From: Leucobacter musarum subsp. musarum
Lineage (GTDB): Bacteria; Actinomycetota; Actinomycetes; Actinomycetales; Microbacteriaceae
Assembly (NCBI RefSeq): GCF_001273845.1
Contig: NZ_JHBW01000067.1
Location: forward strand, 1-64,000
Direction: 5' to 3'
DNA length: 64,000 bases
Below the pieces are notes generated by a model. It saw nothing but the letters and a program-made list of their open reading frames with translations, did not search any database and was not told the origin of the DNA. Positions within the stretch are counted from its first letter, which is position 1, and each line of letters opens with the position of its first letter. A program made the position numbers and the translations under genes. Below, in pieces: positions 27,249-36,372 of the stretch.

Positions 27249-28139
27249 TTACAACTGCGACGCGCTCACGTCGAAGGTGCCACAGGCGGTCGGGCCGTTC
27301 TCGTAGCCCGTCATGAACCAGCGCTGGCGCTGCTCCGACGTTCCGTGCGAGAAGCGCTCGGGGTTCACCTGCACCCCGGCGGATTCCATGATGTGGTCAT
27401 CTCCCACGGCTTCCGCCGCACTCATCGCGTCGGCGATCTGGAGCTGCGTGACGGGCTTCAAGAACGAGACCCCATTGTCGTCTGTCACGTTCGACGCGTT
27501 CTGTACCCAGGCGCCCGCGAAGCAATCGGCCTGCAACTCAAGTCGCACCGAACCTGACGACGCGCCGGTCTCTCGACCGGCGCCCTGCAGCGAGCCGATC
27601 AAATTCGAGATGTGGTGGCCCCACTCGTGCGCGAGCACGTACATCTGCGCGAGCGAACCGTCTGACGCCCCGTAGTCCTTGCTCAGCGTGTCGAAGAACG
27701 CCACATCGACGTAGATCGTCTCATCACCGGGGCAGTAGAACGGCCCGGTCGCCGACGACGCGGTGCCGCACGGCGACTGCGTCTGACCACTGAAGAGCAC
27801 CACCGGGCCCGGAGCACGGTAGTTGCCGACCTGCGTCGCCCAGTAGCGATCAAGCGAGTCGGCAGTGGCGGCCATGCGGCACTCGTCGTCGGTATTTGCG
27901 TCGGTTCCGTTCTTGCATGACGCGAGCACCTCCTCAGCTTCGGAGGAGGTCGTGCTTGCACCCGCTACCTGCTGCACCGCCGGAGCGAACTGCGTGAGGT
28001 CGAACCCGAGCAGTTGCGAGCCGATCGCAAGCAGCAGTGCGATACCGATGCCGCCGCCGGCGATCATGCCGCCCTTCGCGGCACCGCTGCGCTTCCGAAC
28101 CTTCGAATTATCGATGCTCACATTGTCATTGAACGTCAC
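27249..28139 (-). CDS. Neutral zinc metallopeptidase (YpfJ-like)
   Basis: This 296-residue protein has one N-terminal membrane segment (residues 25-46) and an extracytoplasmic peptidase domain. The zinc site is HEWGH (171-175), with the family DETIYVDVAFFDTLSKDYGA stretch before it and LQADCFAGAWVQ (third ligand region) after it; paired Cys residues suggest disulfides. The start is GTG 28139, inside the left 17-bp repeat of the integrated element, so its present upstream region (28140 onward) belongs to the element and its ancestral upstream region now lies after 35969. The start context ACGGGAATCCCT before GTG can still act as a ribosome site. Confidence 0.88.
   Translation of the reverse strand: MTFNDNVSIDNSKVRKRSGAAKGGMIAGGGIGIALLLAIGSQLLGFDLTQFAPAVQQVAGASTTSSEAEEVLASCKNGTDANTDDECRMAATADSLDRYWATQVGNYRAPGPVVLFSGQTQSPCGTASSATGPFYCPGDETIYVDVAFFDTLSKDYGASDGSLAQMYVLAHEWGHHISNLIGSLQGAGRETGASSGSVRLELQADCFAGAWVQNASNVTDDNGVSFLKPVTQLQIADAMSAAEAVGDDHIMESAGVQVNPERFSHGTSEQRQRWFMTGYENGPTACGTFDVSASQL
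28123..28139. repeat. Left attachment repeat (attL core)
   Basis: TTGTCATTGAACGTCAC here is identical to 35953-35969. It covers the first codons and GTG start of the zinc metallopeptidase gene. Weaker similarity continues for about 19 nt on the right side, over the ribosome-binding region. Confidence 0.85.
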
Positions 28140-28238
28140 AGGGATTCCCGTCTGTTGTTGCCCATACTCGTCTACGTTGATTTCATGCCGATTTTCAACG
28201 GTTCGTTGTTGTCGAGTTTAGTTCTGTCGCGTTCGTTT

Positions 28239-28268
28239 TGCGGACTATCTGCGGACTGAGTGCGGACT
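28239..28268. repeat. Three TGCGGACT direct repeats, 11-bp period (candidate integrase arm sites, left)
   Basis: TGCGGACT lies at 28239-28246, 28250-28257 and 28261-28268. The same octamer, orientation and period occur at the other end of the element (35884-35902). The remainder of 28140-28392 has no gene; on the minus strand TTGAAA near 28190 could serve as part of a promoter for the metallopeptidase. Confidence 0.6.
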
Positions 28269-28392
28269 GCTGGGGCGTGGTGGAAAAAGCTGGGGAGAGA
28301 ACGGCCCTATGCACCGGGAGGGCCGGAGAGCCGCGCCGAGGGGTGTACCCCCTACCGACAAGAGCGGTGCACATCGGAGTGCGGATGAGTGG

Positions 28393-28465
28393 TGCCCCCG
28401 GAGAGATTCGAACTCCCGACCGGCGGATTAGAAAGCCGCTGCTCTATCCACTGAGCTACGGGGGC
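28393..28465 (-). tRNA. tRNA-Arg (TCT)
   Basis: Acceptor GCCCCCG pairs with CGGGGGC. The D arm is TAGCTCAGTGG, the anticodon is TCT in loop CTTTCTAA, the T loop is TTCGAAT and the discriminator is A. By the repeat boundaries it lies inside the integrated element, 254 nt from the left core repeat. Confidence 0.95.
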
Positions 28466-28485
28466 GGATGGCGCTACTGGTGCAA

Positions 28486-28707
28486 TCAGATGGGTTCGGA
28501 CGTCGCGCCGGTCTCTGAGAACGAAACACGTTCGAGCAGCGGGTCGCCGCCCTGGTAGCTGAGCCCGATCGTGCTGCCTCGCAGTAGCGACCAGGTGTCG
28601 CGGTCGGCGTCGTAGCGGTACTCGATCGCACCATCGGTGCAGAACACTGCTCGTACTTCATCCGTTCGCCCATCGATGAGGCGGAAGTACTTACGGTCGC
28701 TGGTCAC
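28486..28707 (-). CDS. Small hypothetical protein
   Basis: This 73-residue soluble protein starts MTSDRKYFRLIDG and continues TDEVRAVFCTDGAIEYRYDADRDTW, a probable small beta-sheet fold. I do not recognise a family. It sits between tRNA-Arg and the capsid gene on the same strand, 20 nt from the tRNA. Whether it is element cargo or came along with the tRNA cannot be told from the sequence alone. Confidence 0.6.
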   Translation of the reverse strand: MTSDRKYFRLIDGRTDEVRAVFCTDGAIEYRYDADRDTWSLLRGSTIGLSYQGGDPLLERVSFSETGATSEPI

Positions 28708-28769
28708 GGTTTCAGCCTATCCGTGCTGGGTGCGGGCATCAGAGGCCCGCACCCAGCACTTTGATCAGG

Positions 28770-29624
28770 TCAGGGGGTGTCGGGTTCGAGCAGGAACTTG
28801 CCGAGTCGGTTGGGTCGCACAAGGTTCCAGCCGATTCGCCAGGTGCAGCGCATCGCGACGCTGTCGCTCTTGAAGTAGACGTGCTCGCTGAGAGCGGTCT
28901 TGACCTCACCGACTGCGGCGGCGATCGCGTTCTTATCGAGGATGAGCCCCTGGTTGTGGGGCATCGATCGGTCGATGAGCACCGGCAGGTTGAGCAGCTG
29001 TCGCGCTGCGTCGCTCGCTCCCGCACCGAGCAAGCTCTCGTTCGAGTCGGTGCGTGTCTTGAGCTTCCGCAGACGGGCCCAGCTCATCGGGTTGAGCACG
29101 ATGTGCGAGGCTGCGCCACCGTTCTGCTCGATGACCGAGATCAGGTCGACCAGAAGATCCAGGTTCGTGATCGGGGCAGTGGGCTCCATCACCGGGATCT
29201 CTGCGTGATTCAGGATGCCGGCAGGCGGAGTAACTGCGGGCGACGTCGGCGCGGGCTGGGTGAGAAACGCCTGATTTGCCTTCCGCGTGATCGCACGGGT
29301 GACGCTCTGCGAGATCAGATCGGGCGTGTTCACCTGCTCAGCCTGCTCGCGCGAGAGCTTGACCAGTTGCGTGATCTTCCCGGTGTGCACGACGACCTCA
29401 TCGAGCTCCGGATCAGACTCGGAGATCTCCGCACCTTCGGCCGTGAAGGATGCCTCCGCATCGTCGATGAACGGGACGCGCACCGCAGGAGCGTCACCCT
29501 CGATCGACCCGGCGACGGTTGCCGCCTGCAGAATGAGCGCCTCGGGTGCGGCGTCGGTGGCGGGGAAGGCGACGATGTCGGGCGACCAGGCGGTCGCCGT
29601 GGTGGAAGTGGTTGTGGTTGCCAT
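28770..29624 (-). CDS. HK97-fold phage major capsid protein
   Basis: This 284-residue protein shows features of small HK97-type capsid proteins without a delta domain: an N-terminal arm, VRVPFIDDAEASFTAEGAEISESDPELDEVVVHTGKITQLVKLSREQAEQV (the E-loop/spine-helix region), a long middle with HIVLNPMSWARLRKLK, and a C-terminal domain with LLNLPVLIDRSMP and SDSVAMRCTWRIGWNLVRPNRLGKFLL. The GKITQLVKLS...E element and VAMR-W-RIGW ending are typical. It is the last gene of the minus-strand capsid module, preceded by a scaffold-like gene in the usual scaffold-then-capsid order. No maturation protease, portal or terminase is nearby. Confidence 0.82.
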   Translation of the reverse strand: MATTTTSTTATAWSPDIVAFPATDAAPEALILQAATVAGSIEGDAPAVRVPFIDDAEASFTAEGAEISESDPELDEVVVHTGKITQLVKLSREQAEQVNTPDLISQSVTRAITRKANQAFLTQPAPTSPAVTPPAGILNHAEIPVMEPTAPITNLDLLVDLISVIEQNGGAASHIVLNPMSWARLRKLKTRTDSNESLLGAGASDAARQLLNLPVLIDRSMPHNQGLILDKNAIAAAVGEVKTALSEHVYFKSDSVAMRCTWRIGWNLVRPNRLGKFLLEPDTP

Positions 29625-29796
29625 GGTAGATGGCCTTTCCGGTGGCGCGAGAACGGGCCACCAACGAGAGTGTGATCCGCCGGTGACCTCGGGCCTACCG
29701 GGATGCCGCGCTGCGGCTTCCGTGGCGCTGCGCCGGCCCCTCTGGGGTCTGCGGCGAGCGCGCGTGCTTATCGTACACCGGTGGATTTCGTGGCGT

Positions 29797-30306
29797 TCAG
29801 TCGCGGTCGCGTTTCACGTTGAAGCCTTGAGCGAATGAGCGTGCTGGGTTGCCGGCGTGGGTGGAGGTGCCTGCTTCGCTTTCGATGATGAGTCGGGGTG
29901 CGGGGTGTGCTGATTCGAACATGTATGGTGCGGTGTCGCGGAGCTGCTCGAGGTGGTTGGTCACCGCGGTGGCGTCGAGGTGTCCGTCGGGGGTGTAGAA
30001 GCCTGCTGCGGTATTGAAAGCTTGAGCGATCGCGTCGGGGTGGAGCTTGAGTCTGGGTTCGAGGTTGAGGCCGGGGATCTTCGTGTGGAGCAGTTCGAGG
30101 CGGGCGGTGTCGCGTTCGGTCGTGGCGGTGTCGCGTTCCTGCTCTGCGGTGCGGAGTTGCCGGCGGTACTTCGCGGCTTCTCGGTTCGCGCTGGCGGGTT
30201 CGGCTGGTTCCTGCTCGGTAGGGGTAGGTGCCGGTGTTGCTGCGTTGGGGGTGTCGGTGGTGGCGTCGATGATGCTGTCGTCGTTCGCCGCGAAGTCGGT
30301 GCTCAT
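29797..30306 (-). CDS. Phage scaffold-like protein
   Basis: This 169-residue hydrophilic protein has an acidic, Pro/Thr/Ala-rich N-terminus, a coiled-coil-like stretch (NREAAKYRRQLRTAEQERDTATTERDTA, about residues 45-75) and a C-terminal domain ending in LEQLRDTAPYMFES. Position directly before a capsid gene and composition fit a capsid scaffold. The start ATG 30306 is chosen because the upstream part of the frame overlaps the next gene. Its C-terminal segment resembles that of the WhiB-fusion protein (TELAKSKPYMFRPA), so the two are probably related copies. The 29625-29796 gap holds nothing I can name. Confidence 0.68.
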   Translation of the reverse strand: MSTDFAANDDSIIDATTDTPNAATPAPTPTEQEPAEPASANREAAKYRRQLRTAEQERDTATTERDTARLELLHTKIPGLNLEPRLKLHPDAIAQAFNTAAGFYTPDGHLDATAVTNHLEQLRDTAPYMFESAHPAPRLIIESEAGTSTHAGNPARSFAQGFNVKRDRD

Positions 30307-30317
30307 GGGTCTCGCTT

Positions 30318-30899
30318 TCAGGTTTGGTTCTCGCAGTGGGTGCAGATCCAGCCGCGGTGTTGTTCGGTGTTGATGGGGATGACGGTGCGCTGCCCGCAGA
30401 TCCGGCAGAGGCCGGCCTTTTGAGCGTTGGTGAGTTGTGCTCTGGATCGGAGTCGGTCGATGAGGGTTGCGAGCTCGTCGAGAGGCTCGCGGTAGTGAGG
30501 GTTGAGTGCGATGGGCCATGCTCGTGATCTCAGCCATGCGAGCACCGCGGTGGTGTCGGCGGTGATGCTGCGGGGATCGATGCTCTTGTAGCCGCGGACG
30601 ACTTCGAGGCCGGCTTCGTGGGTGAGGTGTTGCCGGCTTCGGCAGGTGGGCGGTGTGCTGTTGGTTCGTTCGGCGACGTCGTCGACGAGCGCCCAGAGCA
30701 CTGACCAGAGGTTGTCGAGATCGTCGAGACGGTCGACTGCCATCGGGGTGGTGGTGCGGGTCTTGGTGCCGGTTACTCGTTCGGTGAGCTCGTGGTTGCG
30801 GGAGCTGTGGAGCTGCTCGTGCAGGCTGCTTACGAGCAGTGGGACGAACGAGAGGTAGCTGGCGAACCAGGCGGGTCTATCGGCTGCGTTGAGGCTCAC
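30318..30899 (-). CDS. Hypothetical element protein with C-terminal zinc ribbon
   Basis: This 193-residue mainly helical protein ends in a clear treble-clef/zinc-ribbon: CRICGQ...(about 17 residues)...CTHCEN at residues 166-191. The helical body (LHEQLHSSRNHELTERVTG, DDLDNLWSVLWALVDDVAERT, AVLAWLRSRAWPIALNPHY) is of a type common in actinobacteriophage hypothetical genes near head genes. The start overlaps the stop of the upstream fusion gene by four bases. Function unknown; a nucleic-acid or capsid-related role is only guessed from the ribbon and location. Confidence 0.6.
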   Translation of the reverse strand: MSLNAADRPAWFASYLSFVPLLVSSLHEQLHSSRNHELTERVTGTKTRTTTPMAVDRLDDLDNLWSVLWALVDDVAERTNSTPPTCRSRQHLTHEAGLEVVRGYKSIDPRSITADTTAVLAWLRSRAWPIALNPHYREPLDELATLIDRLRSRAQLTNAQKAGLCRICGQRTVIPINTEQHRGWICTHCENQT

Positions 30900-31660
30900 G
30901 CCGTGGCCTGGCGCAGCTCTCGGGAGCGGGCCGGCCTGAACATGTAGGGCTTGCTCTTGGCGAGTTCGGTGATCCGTTCGCGGAGTCGTTCGTGGTCGAG
31001 GCGTCCCACGTTGGTGAAGTACTCCGATGGGTTGGGAAAGGCGTCCGTGACGGCGAGCGGGTGGAGCAGTTGACCGTTCGGTGCGGGGTATCGGTTGAGG
31101 GCGAGCTGCATGATGTCGCGGCGGGCTTCGGTGAGCAGCTTTGCGTCGGCAGATACCGGTCCCGGCTCGGCGGTGTGGACGCGCACGAGCTCCTGGCGCA
31201 GCTCGTCGCGCTCTCGACGGATCTCGTCGCGTTCTTCGACGACCTTCTGAAACTCGGCTGATGGAACGTAGTCACCGGTGGGGGCGGTCGTTTCGGCTGA
31301 GGGCTGAGCGGTTTCGGCGGGGTTCGTCACGGGGTCCTCCGTTGTGGTGGGTCGGGTAGTGATGGTGGGCCAGAATGCGCCCGTGGGTTTAGCGGCCGCG
31401 GCATAGGCTGCGCACGGGTGGCGGATCGGGCAGAGCTCGCAGACTGCGGCGAGCGCGTCTCGATCGTCTGGGGTGAGGGTGTCGGCGATGAACTTGTCGT
31501 TACCGGCGCAGAGCGGCGTCGCGCGGTCGAGCGCTTCACCCAGGAGGTTCCACGCGACTGCTGCCGCCGGCTTCATGGGCGAGCCGAAGTACTCGGCCCG
31601 CCCTGGGGTGTCGTCGTCGCGCGGTGCCGAGTGCTCGCGAGACGACTCGGGCGAGCTCAA
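30896..31660 (-). CDS. WhiB-like domain fused in frame to a scaffold-like domain
   Basis: The 254-residue frame begins at TTG 31660 behind GGAGGATG and overlaps the preceding stop (TTGA). Residues 45-95 form a WhiB-like iron-sulfur domain: Cys51, Cys74, Cys77 and Cys83 with the exact C-x22-C-x2-C-x5-C spacing, followed by GAFWP where Wbl proteins have G-x-W-G-G. After a linker, residues 120-254 form a coiled coil (VVEERDEIRRERDELRQELV) and a scaffold-like domain ending near KPYMFRPA. An internal in-frame GTG at 31330 with GGAGGACC right upstream could produce the 144-residue scaffold part alone. Wbl proteins are regulators; one in a capsid gene module is unusual. Confidence 0.7.
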   Translation of the reverse strand: MSSPESSREHSAPRDDDTPGRAEYFGSPMKPAAAVAWNLLGEALDRATPLCAGNDKFIADTLTPDDRDALAAVCELCPIRHPCAAYAAAAKPTGAFWPTITTRPTTTEDPVTNPAETAQPSAETTAPTGDYVPSAEFQKVVEERDEIRRERDELRQELVRVHTAEPGPVSADAKLLTEARRDIMQLALNRYPAPNGQLLHPLAVTDAFPNPSEYFTNVGRLDHERLRERITELAKSKPYMFRPARSRELRQATA

Positions 31661-31911
31661 GAGTCGCCATCCTCCGGTCGCTGTGCAGATGGGTGCCGCT
31701 CTCTTGACGTGCCGGTCTCGTTATCGATGCGCTGCCAATTGCCGCGCAGGTGCGCCAACGACGGCACGGCGCGGGCTGCGCGGTCGCGGGCGATGCGATC
31801 GCCGACGATGCGATCGATCACACGTCGCGCTCGCCGCCGGTCTTTGGCGCGGGCTGCAATGTATTCTTCGGCTTCGGCGTCGGTGCAGCGGTATTCGTCG
31901 GGGAGGCTCAT
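31657..31911 (-). CDS. Small basic hypothetical protein
   Basis: This 84-residue protein starts MSLPDEYRCTDAEAEEYI and is followed by a strongly basic helix (RAKDRRRARRVIDRIVGDRIARDRAARAV). I do not recognise it; the composition suggests nucleic-acid binding or interaction with acidic proteins. Its ATG overlaps the upstream stop by four bases (31911-31908), and its stop overlaps the TTG of the WhiB fusion, so it is embedded in one translationally coupled operon. Confidence 0.6.
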   Translation of the reverse strand: MSLPDEYRCTDAEAEEYIAARAKDRRRARRVIDRIVGDRIARDRAARAVPSLAHLRGNWQRIDNETGTSRERHPSAQRPEDGDS

Positions 31912-32366
31912 TCGTCGTCGTCTTCCTCGAGGTGCTCGTCGATGATGGTGAGGATTTCGGGCTGCTTCGTGGCTCCGCGCAGATCGATCTCGTGTTCGTC
32001 GGCGAACGCGATGAGCTCCCCCGCTGTCCACTCGGCGTTGGGTGCTGCGGTGTGCTGCAGCTCCTGCTCGAGCTCGTGCTCCGACTCGTGCTCCGCCTCA
32101 TCCACGGGCGGTGTCTCTGGTGCCGGCGGTGTCTGCTCCGCTGCGGGTCGCTTGCCTCGCTTCGTTGCCGGTTTCGTGGCCGGCGCGGGCGCTGACTTCC
32201 GCGGCGCACGCTTAGGCTTCGCGGGGGCGTCGTCGACCGGCGCCCAGGTGGGACCGAGGTCCGCGGCGGAGTCCGTCACGGTGATGATGCTCGCTCCGTC
32301 GGTGTAGCGGCGGGCGGTCGTCGGTAGAACGGTGTCGTCGGCGAGGTTCGGGGTCGGGTTCGTCAT
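31908..32366 (-). CDS. Hypothetical protein with disordered linker and SAP/HeH-like C-terminal domain
   Basis: This 152-residue protein has an N-terminal segment with a short beta-like stretch (TARRYTDGASIITVTDSAADLGPTW), a Lys/Pro/Ala-rich linker (about residues 48-85), an acidic Glu/His stretch, and a C-terminal small helical motif WTAGELIAFADEHEIDLRGATKQPEILTII of the SAP/HeH or Rho-N type, which often binds DNA/RNA or sits in phage head-completion proteins. It is the first gene of the minus-strand run after the iteron region, so its promoter probably lies in 32367-32600. Confidence 0.6.
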   Translation of the reverse strand: MTNPTPNLADDTVLPTTARRYTDGASIITVTDSAADLGPTWAPVDDAPAKPKRAPRKSAPAPATKPATKRGKRPAAEQTPPAPETPPVDEAEHESEHELEQELQHTAAPNAEWTAGELIAFADEHEIDLRGATKQPEILTIIDEHLEEDDDE

Positions 32367-32387
32367 CGGGTTTCCTTCGTGTTGGAG

Positions 32388-32600
32388 TTATCCACAGGGA
32401 TCGATTCAGGGGTGCGCGCGCACGCGCGTTGGTAGTTAAAGAACTGGTTGTTCAGTGGCTGTTCCTCTTGCCCGTCCCGCTCCGGGACTTAACCCCACCG
32501 GAGCGGGACTCAACCCCGTCCCGCTCTGGGATTAGGTAAAGTCCCGGAGCGGGACTGAACCCGTGAGGGTTATCCACAAAGTTGAGTCTCAGAGCGGGAC
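32388..32600. other. Candidate replication origin or operator: five GAGCGGGAC iterons between two DnaA boxes
   Basis: GAGCGGGAC (or its complement) occurs at 32474-32482(-), 32501-32509(+), 32518-32526(-), 32547-32555(+) and 32592-32600(+). Two of these are within the partly symmetric GTCCCGCTCCGGGAC in opposite orientation. Perfect DnaA boxes TTATCCACA lie at 32388-32396 and 32570-32578. An AT-richer tract (about 32425-32455) lies between. A small HTH protein gene adjoins directly at 32601. This is the composition of an iteron origin, but the same repeats could be operators for the head operon. Confidence 0.6.
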
Positions 32601-32882
32601 TCAAGTCCTGATTCGGTAGAGCGTCGAGGTTCTGCCGCCGTTGCCTTCGCGTCGGTACCGGGCTTCGCGTTCGATCAGGTCGCCCGCTTCGAGAGTGTCG
32701 AGCGCTCGGCAGAGCGTCGATCGCCCCAGTCCGGTGTCGTCGGTGAGCGCGGCGAGACTCGGCCAGCATTCGCCCTTCTTGTCGGCGTAACTCGCGAGCA
32801 CCATCAGAACGCACTTCTGCGGTGCCTTGAGCCCTCGCACTTCCCGCGCCCATCGGATCAGCTCGAAGGCGTCGCGGGCCAA
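32601..32882 (-). CDS. Helix-turn-helix protein, candidate replication initiator or repressor
   Basis: About 93 residues form one winged HTH: ELIRWAREVRGLKAPQKCVLMVLASYADKKGECWPSLAALTDDTGLGRSTLCRALDTLEAGDLIEREARYR. The WPSLAALTDDTGLGRSTLCRALDTLE segment is the recognition-helix type seen in phage replication and HTH_36 proteins. Start is uncertain: TTG 32882 gives the conserved beginning LARDAFELI and a 25-nt overlap with the upstream gene; the frame continues further upstream but there it is antisense-like to nothing sensible. It lies against the iteron cluster and is the natural candidate to bind it. Confidence 0.65.
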   Translation of the reverse strand: MARDAFELIRWAREVRGLKAPQKCVLMVLASYADKKGECWPSLAALTDDTGLGRSTLCRALDTLEAGDLIEREARYRREGNGGRTSTLYRIRT

Positions 32883-33217
32883 GGTGCTGTCTTGTGCTCC
32901 GGCACGACCTCCCAGAGCCGTGCAGAATTGCCGAGCGCCGTGGTGGACCTCTTGCCGGTGTCCCTGATCCATCCGGCGCGCGCGAGCTCGCTGCGGGCTG
33001 TTCTGAGGTTCTGCGGCGAGCGCGGTGGGTTGCCGGCGTTGAGGTAGGCGTCGACGAGCTGCTCGTCGGTGAGGGGTCCGCGCACGCGCAGCTGGTGCAT
33101 GATTGCGGCGTGCAGCTTCGCCCGTCGTCTGCCGATGGTGTGGAGTGCCGCGAGCGACGTATCGGGGCGCGAGCGTCTCTCTGGCTCGTCGGGTAGGAGC
33201 GTCGGGTGGGTGGTCAC
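32858..33217 (-). CDS. Small HTH-like hypothetical protein
   Basis: This 119-residue protein starts at GTG 33217, which overlaps the upstream stop (GTGA). It contains a helical winged-helix-like region: LHAAIMHQLRVRGPLTDEQLVDAYLNAGNPPRSPQNLRTARSELARAGWIRDTGK. This is typical of DNA-binding domains in which the PLTDEQLVDAY helix pair precedes a recognition helix. It is probably a DNA-binding partner of the following gene in replication or control of the element. Confidence 0.65.
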   Translation of the reverse strand: MTTHPTLLPDEPERRSRPDTSLAALHTIGRRRAKLHAAIMHQLRVRGPLTDEQLVDAYLNAGNPPRSPQNLRTARSELARAGWIRDTGKRSTTALGNSARLWEVVPEHKTAPWPATPSS

Positions 33218-33822
33218 GAGATCACCGTCTGACCGGCCTCGTGGTTGATCACCGTCTGCACCGCCTGGTGAGCGCTGATGTAGCGGCCCGTGAGCCTCTC
33301 AAGCACGGCCCGAGTTGCGAGAGCTTCTTCGAGCTCAATCTCGAACGCTTCCACGCCGCCGTAGACGAAGAAGCCGGGTGGGTCGACCGTCATCTTGCCG
33401 CTCTCCAAATCAATCGCGAACCGTTGAGTCACGGTGCCTGAGACGCCTGCTGAACGGCACTCTGGCGATTCAGCAGTAAGTGTGAGAGCCGCCGGCGACC
33501 CTGAAAGTTCGCCCCGCACCGCAGCCCACTTGGAACGAGCCCATGGAGGGGTCGGCAAGGGCGGCTCCGGCTTCGTCACGAATTCGCTGTTGAAGTAGGA
33601 CTCGCCGAGCAGTCCGGCGAGCGACTGATCGATCTCGAGACCGTTTTCCCCCTCGACGAAACCGCGCTGCCATTCGTTGAGCTGCTCTCTCGCTGCGTCA
33701 GTGACTCGCGGATCGTCAAGGCTCGTGATCGGCGCGCCGACGGTGTTCGCGAGATCGCGCATTTCGGCGAGCCATTTCGCGAAGGCTTCGCGGGTGTCGG
33801 GGGTGTCTGCGATGATATTCAT
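33214..33822 (-). CDS. Hypothetical element protein
   Basis: This 202-residue soluble protein starts at ATG 33822 behind GGAAGGAAACC. The N-terminal half is helical (DTREAFAKWLAEMRDLANTVG, AAREQLNEWQRGFVEG); the second half is beta-rich with RFAIDLESGKMTVDPPGFFVYGGVEAFEIELEEALATRAVLERLTG. I do not recognise the family. It heads the minus-strand run after the excisionase-like gene and is coupled to the HTH gene by a 4-nt overlap. Confidence 0.6.
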   Translation of the reverse strand: MNIIADTPDTREAFAKWLAEMRDLANTVGAPITSLDDPRVTDAAREQLNEWQRGFVEGENGLEIDQSLAGLLGESYFNSEFVTKPEPPLPTPPWARSKWAAVRGELSGSPAALTLTAESPECRSAGVSGTVTQRFAIDLESGKMTVDPPGFFVYGGVEAFEIELEEALATRAVLERLTGRYISAHQAVQTVINHEAGQTVIS

Positions 33823-33892
33823 GACTGGTTTCCTTCCAAGGTGATTTGGTCGTTGCCCTCGGCGCGGTGCTTCGCGTCGAGGGTTTTTGCGT

Positions 33893-34135
33893 CTATCGAA
33901 TGCGCCATGACGTGCCCTTCGCAGTATCACCGCGCTCCGCTGCGGCCGCGGCGAACGCGGCTTCGATGTAAGCGTCGATATCGGACGATCGGAACATGCG
34001 CCGACCGCCGATTTTCGCCGACAGAGGCGCACTGCCGTTATGGATCATCCATCGAAGCTGCGCCGGCGTCTTCCTCAGGCGCTCTGACGCTTCCTCGACG
34101 GAGAGCAGCTGCTCAGGCTCTGCTGTAGTCACCAC
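33893..34135 (-). CDS. Excisionase-like (AlpA/HTH_17) DNA-binding protein
   Basis: This 80-residue protein has a MerR-type HTH: LLSVEEASERLRKTPAQLRWMIHNGSAPLSAKIGGRRMFRSSDIDAYIEAAFAAA. The pattern, length and the GGRRMFRSSDIDAYIE wing are typical of recombination directionality factors and AlpA-like regulators. It is divergent from the repressor/integrase pair, a standard int/xis arrangement; it probably controls excision and/or the minus-strand operon. Confidence 0.78.
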   Translation of the reverse strand: MVTTAEPEQLLSVEEASERLRKTPAQLRWMIHNGSAPLSAKIGGRRMFRSSDIDAYIEAAFAAAAAERGDTAKGTSWRIR

Positions 34136-34163
34136 GTTGCCCCAATCTGGTTTATCTTGAATC

Positions 34164-34182
34164 GTTCATGATTTTCATGAAC
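34164..34182. promoter_or_regulatory. Perfect 8-bp inverted repeat, candidate repressor operator
   Basis: GTTCATGATTTTCATGAAC has exact 8-bp arms (34164-34171 and 34175-34182) around TTT. It lies in the AT-rich gap between the divergent excisionase and repressor genes. Further down, TAAACT (34239-34244) stands 7 nt before GTG 34252, which fits a -10 box for a leaderless repressor mRNA. Confidence 0.6.
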
Positions 34183-34251
34183 ACCGAGCACATTACCAAC
34201 GCATTCAAGATTTCTCAACACCTATCAACAAAAAGCCGTAAACTCGGTTGC

Positions 34252-34818
34252 GTGACCCTTGAAGAACGAATCGCACACAACGTCCGCCGGCTTCGCGGTG
34301 ATCTGACCCAGAGAGAACTCGCCGACGCAATGTCGGCGCGTGGCTGGAAGTGGCAGCATCAGACAGTCGGGATGATTGAGCAGGGCAATCGGTCCGTGAA
34401 ACTTGCTGAGGCCCTCGACCTGGTCGAAGTTCTGCAGCTACGCGATTTGCAGGAGCTCACTGCAGACCCTGGAGTCGGCGAGGCGAAACGGGCGTGGCAG
34501 CGCGCATACGACGCACACGAAGACCTCTTCGACGCGGCGCGAGAGCTACAAGATGCGCAGTACGAGCTCGCTTCGTTGTTGAGCTATCTCGAGGACGAAA
34601 CGAACGAAAGTTTGCCATTCAACGATGAGGCGATCGATCTGGTGCTCGGTTGGTCCCCGGAGAGTGCGGTGAAGCTGGCCTATCCGAAGGACCCCGGCGT
34701 TGCAGAGGGCGAGGCCGTCAACCGATGGATGAGTCATTTGCTCGCCGGGCCGTACGGCGAGCGCCTACGAGCGCTCTCGGATCGCGAATCGGCTCGGGAA
34801 CATAATGGCGAGCGTTAA
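34252..34818 (+). CDS. XRE/Cro-CI-type repressor
   Basis: This 188-residue protein has an N-terminal XRE HTH: IAHNVRRLRGDLTQRELADAMSARGWKWQHQTVGMIEQGNRSVKLAEALDLVEVL (residues 5-60). A charged coiled-coil (EAKRAWQRAYDAHEDLFDAARELQDAQYELASLLSYLEDE) and a C-terminal part of unknown fold follow. GTG 34252 is chosen because similarity starts there and a -10-like TAAACT sits 7 nt upstream; an in-frame ATG at 34168 would place the operator palindrome inside the gene. Its end overlaps the integrase start by 14 nt. Confidence 0.75.
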   Translation: MTLEERIAHNVRRLRGDLTQRELADAMSARGWKWQHQTVGMIEQGNRSVKLAEALDLVEVLQLRDLQELTADPGVGEAKRAWQRAYDAHEDLFDAARELQDAQYELASLLSYLEDETNESLPFNDEAIDLVLGWSPESAVKLAYPKDPGVAEGEAVNRWMSHLLAGPYGERLRALSDRESAREHNGER

Positions 34819-35929
34819 ACGTCAGCCGAGCGGGAAGTGGCGTGCACGGTTCCGCGATGATGCTGGTCGCGAGCACGCACGTCATTTTGAGACGAAGCGC
34901 GATGCGCAGCGGTGGCTCGATGAGGTCACGGCGTCGCAGTTGACGGGCCAGTACGTCGATCCGTCGGCGGGCAAGGTGACGCTCGAGCGATACTTCGCGG
35001 AGTGGTCGGCGCGTCAGATCTGGGCGCCTGGCACGACGAAGTCGATGGAGCTCTCTGTCTCGACGTGCTCGTTCAAGGGCACGGAGTTGCGCCGGCTCCG
35101 GCGGTCGCACGTCGAGGGCTGGGTCAAGAAGATGGATGACGACGAGCTCGCACCCGGAACGATCCGCACCAGGCTTAACAACGTGCGTGCGGTGCTGAAG
35201 TCTGCGGTGCGCGATCGCTACCTTGCGATCGACCCGACAGAGCGCGTCGCACTCCCCCGCGCTCGTCGAAGCGAGCACGCGATGGAGATCCCGACAGCGC
35301 AGCAAGTCGGCGCGCTCCTCTCGGGCGCTGACAGCCATTTCAGGGCGCTCGTGGCCCTCTGCGCGTTCGCGGGCCTGCGGCTCGGCGAGGCGGCCGCGCT
35401 GCGGCTCTCAGACGTCGATTTCCTGCGTCGTCAGATCACCGTCGCACGACAGATGCGCCCCGGTATCGAAAAAGGATCGCTCGAGGTCGTCGCGCCGAAG
35501 TACGGGTCAGAGCGAATCGTCTTCGCGGCCGACGAGCTGCTGCAGATCATCAACGAGCATCTCGCCGACGTCGGCACCTTCGGCGGCGAGCGCTATCTGT
35601 TCATGGGGAAGGCCGGCTTGCCGCCGTCGCGGGGCATGCTGGCGTATCAGTGGAAGAAAGCGCGTGACGCTGCCGGCGTCGATGGTGTGCGGCTGCACGA
35701 TCTGCGGCACTTCTACGCGTCAGGGTTGATCGCGAACGGTTGCGACGTCGTGACGGTACAGCAGGCGCTCGGTCATTCGAAGGCGACGACCACGCTCAAC
35801 ACCTACAGCCACCTGTGGCCGACGGCGGAGGACAAGACGCGGGCCGCGGTCGGGGTGCTGGTCCGCGAAGCTCTGGCGAATTCTGCGGACTCTGTGCGGA
35901 CTGCGGAGGCCGGAGTCACCACAGCGTAA
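34805..35929 (+). CDS. int: Phage-type tyrosine recombinase (integrase), intact
   Basis: This 374-residue protein has an N-terminal arm-binding domain (SGKWRARFRDDAGREHARHFETKRDAQRWLDEVTA), a core-binding domain (about residues 60-160) and a catalytic domain with all active residues: Arg192 (AGLRLGEAAALR), His298-x-x-Arg301 (LHDLRHFYASG), His324 (ALGHSK) and nucleophile Tyr334 (NTYSHL). The gene runs to 24 nt before the right core repeat. The last codons contain the TGCGGACT repeats that are proposed arm sites, so gene and site overlap. Cotranscribed with the repressor (14-nt overlap). Confidence 0.93.
   Translation: MASVKRQPSGKWRARFRDDAGREHARHFETKRDAQRWLDEVTASQLTGQYVDPSAGKVTLERYFAEWSARQIWAPGTTKSMELSVSTCSFKGTELRRLRRSHVEGWVKKMDDDELAPGTIRTRLNNVRAVLKSAVRDRYLAIDPTERVALPRARRSEHAMEIPTAQQVGALLSGADSHFRALVALCAFAGLRLGEAAALRLSDVDFLRRQITVARQMRPGIEKGSLEVVAPKYGSERIVFAADELLQIINEHLADVGTFGGERYLFMGKAGLPPSRGMLAYQWKKARDAAGVDGVRLHDLRHFYASGLIANGCDVVTVQQALGHSKATTTLNTYSHLWPTAEDKTRAAVGVLVREALANSADSVRTAEAGVTTA
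35884..35902. repeat. Two TGCGGACT direct repeats, 11-bp period (candidate integrase arm sites, right)
   Basis: TGCGGACT at 35884-35891 and 35895-35902 lies within the last codons of int, about 50 nt from the right core repeat. It matches the triple repeat at the left end in sequence, orientation and period. Confidence 0.6.
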
Positions 35930-35952
35930 GGGATCGGAGCCGATTCCCAACG

Positions 35953-35969
35953 TTGTCATTGAACGTCAC
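35953..35969. repeat. Right attachment repeat (attR core)
   Basis: TTGTCATTGAACGTCAC is identical to 28123-28139. To its right lies ACAGGAAC-type ribosome-site sequence on the minus strand (GACAGGAACCGCC before GTG) and TACAAT at 36048-36043, the expected native upstream region of the zinc metallopeptidase gene. Confidence 0.85.
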
Positions 35970-36096: not shown

Positions 36097-36372
36097 TCAG
36101 TCTCGACGCACGTTGAGCAGCTGCCACCCGTCGGGCACCTGCGCACGCAGCTGATCCAGCGTCTCCGCTTCGATTTCACGCAGCCCGTCGCGACGAGCAT
36201 AGGTACCGACGGCCGAGATCGCAGTCTGCCCTTTCAGCATCGCCACCGGCGCCAGGATGAGATCGAAACCCTCAGGCCGAGCGGCCGCGAGCTTCTCCTG
36301 CACCTCGGGCAGGCCCTCGCCCGTGACTTCGGCCTGAACCAGTTCAATCTGGCGGATGGTGGCGTGCAGCAT
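36097..36372 (-). CDS. Small hypothetical protein
   Basis: This 91-residue protein begins MLHATIRQIELVQAEVTGEGLPEVQEKLAA and ends AETLDQLRAQVPDGWQLLNVRRD, an alpha/beta composition with two short helices and a few strands (FDLILAPVAMLKGQTAISAVGTY). I do not recognise the family. Codon use matches core genes. It lies between the former metallopeptidase promoter region and the iminopeptidase gene, on the same strand as both. Confidence 0.6.
   Translation of the reverse strand: MLHATIRQIELVQAEVTGEGLPEVQEKLAAARPEGFDLILAPVAMLKGQTAISAVGTYARRDGLREIEAETLDQLRAQVPDGWQLLNVRRD

Follow-up and report, generated by a model that had tools for sequence, protein, structure and literature searches.

A compact integrated element of Leucobacter musarum that encodes scaffold and capsid genes and resembles a phage satellite

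Capsid-forming phage-inducible chromosomal islands (cfPICIs) carry their own packaging genes (terminase and portal). They are satellites that make their own capsids (PMC11389934). In Mycobacterium, regions combining an integrase with a capsid gene, including phiRv1 and phiRv2, have already been defined as candidate PICIs. These regions have att ends and integrate either at tRNA genes by means of tyrosine integrases or with serine integrases, and some carry helicase, terminase or scaffold genes (PMC10654092). The Streptomyces satellites MulchRoom and MiniFlayer (14.8 and 17.4 kb) encode their own capsid and scaffold, with capsids of about 43 nm; both have the two terminase subunits and a portal and no primase, and MiniFlayer has no integrase (PMC10690885). 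In SaPIbov5, Ccm is a satellite-encoded homologue of the helper capsid protein and is located in pentamers of the T=4 procapsid (PMC8569155). Here we describe an integrated element of 7,847 bp (28123-35969, both end repeats included) in Leucobacter musarum subsp. musarum, lying in a 64,000-nt stretch of contig NZ_JHBW01000067.1, hereafter the window. The element is probably a helper-dependent phage satellite, forming small heads of its own and relying on the helper for portal, terminase and tail.

The element fits the candidate-PICI definition (PMC10654092) and differs from cfPICIs in being without packaging genes. Its integration machinery, an integrase and repeated ends, stands outside a prophage, and it encodes a major capsid protein (Table 1). 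It shares att ends, integrase and capsid with the Mycobacterium regions and can be seen as a further variant of them, but it is found in another family, is sited at the start codon of a Zn-peptidase gene, and has its own tRNA, a predicted WhiB-scaffold fusion and no terminase. Like cfPICIs, it encodes a capsid of its own; no match to the terminase or portal that define them was obtained in the element. Relatives L033, L121, L122 and L125 (L-numbers label the relatives' capsid loci) have packaging genes and are closer to the cfPICI plan. MulchRoom and MiniFlayer are likewise actinobacterial with their own capsid and scaffold, whereas the window element is smaller and is without terminase and portal. 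With SaPIbov5 it has in common a capsid homologue and the lack of an own packaging set; Ccm, however, is related to the helper capsid, and no such phage was found for the window capsid.

Twelve phage records of Mycolicibacterium aichiense (10.9-11.1 kb), found with the L029 capsid, are distant kin. That WillG and its kin were deposited as phages suggests that elements of this plan get into particles. The WillG-group capsid aligns with that of the window at 25% over 237 aa and with those of L029 and L109 at 35-39%. The group (about 11 kb) also resembles the window element in its integrase, helix-turn-helix (HTH) genes and scaffold-like gene, and in having neither a large terminase nor a portal annotated. 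In WillG, the one record of the group examined and listed as coming from soil, a small terminase, adaptor, stopper, serine integrase, capsid and tape measure protein are annotated; the window element, in contrast, has no serine integrase, small terminase, connector genes or tape measure protein. In a survey of the literature on phage satellites (in Microbacterium, with tape measure proteins, and with capsid and terminase in Actinobacteria), no description of this element stood among the papers listed.

Limits and gene content

The identical 17-mer TTGTCATTGAACGTCAC stands at both ends of the element, which is present as a single copy with these ends. A Zn-peptidase gene (27249-28139, minus strand; PF04228, 2.9e-63) begins with these same 17 nt, and insertion therefore swaps the upstream region of the peptidase while keeping its start. 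Repeats of TGCGGACT just inside both ends may be integrase arm sites, judging from their placement. The peptidase gene was matched in 48 of 54 congener genomes, and neither element DNA nor the tRNA-Arg found a match at the 24 congener loci compared. At 12 of these, the site is flanked on both sides by the two host genes: the alpha/beta hydrolase gene found to the right of the element in the window stands on the corresponding side of the peptidase start. At the other 12 loci, the hydrolase gene was not within the 1.5 kb compared.

The repressor-like and integrase genes are read rightward with a 14-nt overlap, and the remaining protein genes leftward. The leftward order is an excisionase-like gene, two unknown genes, the replication HTH gene, a region of iterons and DnaA boxes, and six genes ending with scaffold and then capsid, with 4-nt overlaps at three junctions (30896-30899, 31908-31911 and 33214-33217). 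General family scans of the element proteins gave no match to a terminase, portal, tail, lysis or relaxase family; for a protease there was one unconvincing match (0.027). The relaxase that marks conjugative or mobilizable elements was thus missing from the proteins scanned. An earlier sequence-only reading of this DNA had listed the end repeats, the intact integrase, the divergent repressor and excisionase-like genes, the HTH genes, the overlapping operon, the HK97-type capsid and the missing gene classes, all of which were recovered here. It had passed over the tRNA-Arg(UCU), the 73-aa open reading frame (ORF), the hairpin after the capsid gene and a resident siphovirus-type prophage.

Two scaffold-like genes had also been recognised, and rightly so; what escaped notice is that the second (30896-31576) has a WhiB-like domain and is, from its alignments, a WhiB-like/scaffold fusion. 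Its WhiB-like half matches a stand-alone 91-aa WhiB-like protein of L097 at 41%, and its C-terminal half matches the scaffold (29797-30306) at 32% over 69 aa (E 3e-7).

The DnaA box TTATCCACA occurs at 32388 and 32570; these are the only two in 64 kb, and none of 100 shuffles reached two. Four iterons (32477, 32498, 32544 and 32589) fall within about 130 bp, although their number alone is not significant (2.24 expected, and four reached in 20 of 100 shuffles). Together with the replication-type HTH gene, the boxes and iterons suggest that the element is self-replicating.

Table 1. Features of the integrated element in window coordinates
Feature	Position	Strand	Evidence or remark
Left end repeat (att core)	28123..28139		identical to 35953-35969
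TGCGGACT repeats, candidate integrase arm sites (left)	28236..28276	+	direct repeats D5/D15 common to 35881-35910
tRNA-Arg(UCU) (tct)	28390..28465	-	ARAGORN
73-aa ORF beyond capsid hairpin	28486..28707	-	no family over cut-off
Hairpin-forming inverted repeat, 3' of capsid gene	28723..28759		arms of 18 nt with 94% complementarity and 1 nt between them
Major capsid protein, HK97 family, 284 aa	28770..29624	-	Phage_capsid 6.8e-22; PHROG major head 1.9e-20
Scaffold protein	29797..30306	-	PHROG head scaffolding 3e-4 (longer frame); scaffold position kept in relatives
193-aa protein	30318..30899	-	phrog_1467, 8.7e-10
WhiB-like N-terminal domain fused to second scaffold-like domain (predicted)	30896..31576	-	WhiB 0.0055 (under Pfam cut-off); PHROG WhiB 6e-4
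84-aa protein	31657..31911	-	ORF, coding-like codon use
152-aa protein, C-terminal domain common to several phage families	31908..32366	-	phrog_3281 5e-5
Replication region: two DnaA boxes and four iterons	32388..32607		box and repeat searches
Replication-initiation type HTH protein	32601..32972	-	HTH_36 1.1e-11; PHROG replication initiation 1.7e-16
119-aa protein, phage family	32858..33217	-	phrog_1123 2.1e-11
202-aa protein, no family match	33214..33822	-	ORF
Excisionase-like HTH protein	33893..34135	-	HTH_17 1.1e-10; PHROG excisionase 1.6e-6; 59-61% to same gene in L033, L029
Repressor-like HTH protein	34168..34818	+	HTH_3 0.0007, under Pfam cut-off; similar gene beside integrase in L026, L033
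Tyrosine integrase	34805..35929	+	Pfam Phage_integrase 4.1e-22
TGCGGACT repeats, candidate integrase arm sites (right)	35881..35910	+	direct repeats
Right end repeat (att core)	35953..35969		identical to 28123-28139

Relatives, packaging genes and phages

Capsid matches were detected in 14 of 398 genomes of the family, and capsid profile matches in 27 of 396 genomes of the order and 18 of 394 of the class, the three sets overlapping in few genomes, such as that of L. musarum itself. Matches without internal stops were 14 of 14, 29 of 31 and 24 of 25, respectively. In one family of the class (f22), many genomes were matched by the A1 capsid profile. Among the relatives is Xylanimicrobium pachnodae (capsid 59%), and a search of IMG/VR gave two matching contigs. 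We examined 54 loci, the window and 53 relatives (nearly all about 20 kb). Repeated ends beside an integrase or tRNA were found in 40, at distances of 7,541-10,956 bp (median about 9.1 kb); 31 of these 40 overlap a tRNA gene, covering 12 amino-acid kinds. The repeats were picked manually from the two best per locus, with preference for tRNA overlap, and those of L033 and L124 are only 15 bp. Integrases vary among the relatives, L097 having a serine recombinase, and most of the large genes within their elements encode replication primases and helicases. None of the 54 loci (about 20 kb around each; 14 without ends) showed a full-length prophage with this capsid. The comparison of relatives that had been proposed as a check thus shows similar limits at other sites.

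Terminase was sought in the 54 loci by tblastn with two queries. Large terminase (TerL) was detected by local searches in L027, L033, L113, L114, L121, L122 and L125, and portal in L033, L034, L121, L122 and L125; the second element of L096 has both. The capsid tree, which left out three of 55 capsids with stops in the matched stretch (L108, L126 and L121, the last with TerL and portal), places the window within supported clades of 10, 18 and 23 rows, the largest with support 99/98. No row of this 23-row clade had TerL in the local test. Family profiles were run on 20 clade genomes and controls. In these 20 genomes, no match to phrog_2 or phrog_9 (terminase) or to phrog_104 or phrog_12 (portal) fell inside an element, all matches being on other contigs or far from it. 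For phrog_104, none of the 14 control genomes was matched, yet the resident prophage portal was found. L096, a viral contig of the clade whose neighbouring second element is the one with TerL and portal, stood outside the profile searches. On the tree, the label TerL needs two changes and the tape measure label three. Neither shows strong clustering; counts no higher came up in 31 and 221 of 500 shuffles.

At E<=1e-5, neither the window capsid nor that of L023, a 61% relative, matched any of 50,697 phage records, whereas the resident prophage capsid, used as a control, matched 212. Element DNA matched 478 records, none covering 80% of the query, and among the matches listed (15 of 478) the similarity was confined to the tRNA, about 1% of the query. 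The resemblance to an intact phage that marks a defective prophage was therefore found neither for the capsid nor, in the matches listed, for the DNA. The resident prophage is of siphovirus type and lies on a 36.8-kb contig (C100). It holds the only terminase match of the genome, with portal, scaffold, capsid, major tail and tape measure genes; no integrase was noticed there. It may be a helper.

Competing explanations and significance

In the satellite reading, the rightward repressor-integrase pair would keep the integrated element silent, and an active helper phage would switch on the leftward operon. The excisionase would release a circle, which the HTH replication protein would copy from the iterons and DnaA boxes. 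The late genes (WhiB-like regulator, scaffold and capsid) would assemble small heads with room for about 8 kb, with portal, terminase, connector and tail presumably supplied by the helper.

That similar-sized relatives occupy many chromosomal sites suggests a satellite rather than a ruined phage. The sequence-only reading had offered a satellite or a decayed prophage, and the satellite is supported by independent relatives with similar limits and by a clade without terminase or portal. A decayed prophage keeping an open operon by chance would account for the small size, the missing packaging and tail genes and the few decayed relatives. We consider it highly improbable in view of the narrow size range at many sites, capsid frames intact in nearly all matches, the supported clade without terminase, the retained replication genes, the lack of a phage with this capsid, and phage DNA similarity over the tRNA only in the matches listed. 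An integrative plasmid-like element, using the capsid for another purpose such as phage defence or a protein shell, is the least probable explanation of all. Its replication region is of plasmid type, and a related circular contig combines a plasmid replicase with capsid and scaffold; against this, no defence family was detected in the element beyond one weak match (0.0086), its kin have been deposited as phages, and relatives carry terminase, portal, small terminase or tape measure genes. A role like that of Ccm in SaPIbov5, with capsid and scaffold joining the helper's procapsids and reducing their size, is also rather unlikely. Ccm is a satellite homologue of the helper capsid (PMC8569155), and the window element likewise has capsid and scaffold and no packaging genes. 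However, Ccm resembles its helper's capsid and no phage record matches that of the window, and the resident prophage capsid falls in another family (phrog_29 rather than phrog_10). Self-assembly is favoured because the element has its own scaffold gene beside the capsid gene.

Several observations weigh against a satellite. Ends were not found in 14 of the 54 loci, and decayed copies exist, with capsid stops in L108 and L126 and a broken integrase in L028. The small terminase and HNH genes of some relatives are both missing from the window element. Ten of the 20 clade genomes had no phrog_2 or phrog_9 terminase match, and therefore no resident helper of that kind. Between the element and C100 there are only short, chance-like matches (best DNA match 34 bp at 85%, E 5e-4); with no convincing shared sequence, no helper or packaging site could be pointed out. 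Structure prediction of the capsid, suggested earlier as a check, gave poor AlphaFold models (mean pLDDT 46 with one sequence and 42 with four). When solved structures were searched by profile, two capsid chains were retrieved (E 1e-5 and 1.7e-5).

If it is a satellite, the element would represent a stable intermediate: some satellites do no more than reshape the helper capsid and others make the whole head, whereas here capsid and scaffold have long been kept and packaging is left to others. If heads form, a shell without a close phage relative has to accept the portal and terminase of one phage, and the choice of shell by a portal becomes a directly testable question. These results suggest that many 8-11-kb 'phage remnants' of actinobacterial genomes are working satellites. 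More tentatively, they might form a widespread actinobacterial class supplying only the size-setting parts (scaffold, capsid and, in some, a short tape measure), with portal, terminase and the remaining tail given by the helper. In that case the heads, for 7.5-11 kb of DNA, would fall below the T=4 shells known from satellites in size and might be T=3, an unusual geometry for a tailed-phage head.

The tRNA gene, variant relatives and neighbouring sequences

The host carries another tRNA-Arg(UCU), 86% identical to the element copy, which we assign to the element because it is absent from the 24 congener loci. We rejected this tRNA as the present attachment site, since the 17-bp repeat and the candidate arm repeats lie outside it and congeners have no tRNA there. 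It could be a relic of an older attachment site: at the integrase gene of Microbacterium phage Min1 lies a sequence with 86% identity to this tRNA. Equally possibly it is cargo; the codons that it would read, AGA and AGG, are enriched in the element, where they account for 15 of the 157 arginine codons, against 12 of 1050 elsewhere in the window (Fisher 1.2e-7).

Tape measure proteins are encoded in four satellite-sized elements, L023 (6987-9008, 673 aa), L029 (6861-9050, 729 aa), L035 (11364-14450, 1028 aa) and L127 (8075-10030, 651 aa), in which no other tail genes were recognised. For L023 and L029 the best PHROG is labelled endolysin and the next ones tape measure, and the L023 protein matches Pfam TMP_3 (6e-19). 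For comparison, four phage homologues measure 1206-1364 aa and that of the resident prophage 1026 aa. Small-terminase-like genes without a large terminase were found in L035 (10542-10904; Terminase_4, 1.9e-7), L109 (9006-9374; no Pfam match), L119 (11730-12116) and L120 (8549-8962), and they align with one another and with that of WillG. In L096, the two adjacent elements have opposite orientation, one with scaffold and capsid and the other with terminase, portal, scaffold and capsid.

L106 (G606:C35, 9087 bp) encodes a plasmid replicase (PF03090, 6.7e-14), a WhiB-like protein, scaffold and capsid, and no integrase was detected by the queries used. It is probably a circle of 8,992 bp because its contig ends are identical over 95 bp. 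Its genome holds two further capsid loci, L112 and L115. No plasmid record carrying the window's capsid was found; 14 Clostridioides difficile plasmid records, including the 7.9-kb plasmid of strain 630, have a distant capsid gene, at about 23% to that of L106.

The product of 31908-32366 has a short, weak match (29 aa, E 0.001) to a gene beside the resident prophage capsid. Just right of the element, the protein at 36097-36372 is 70% identical over 89 aa to one encoded at 29715-29993 of C100, near the resident prophage.

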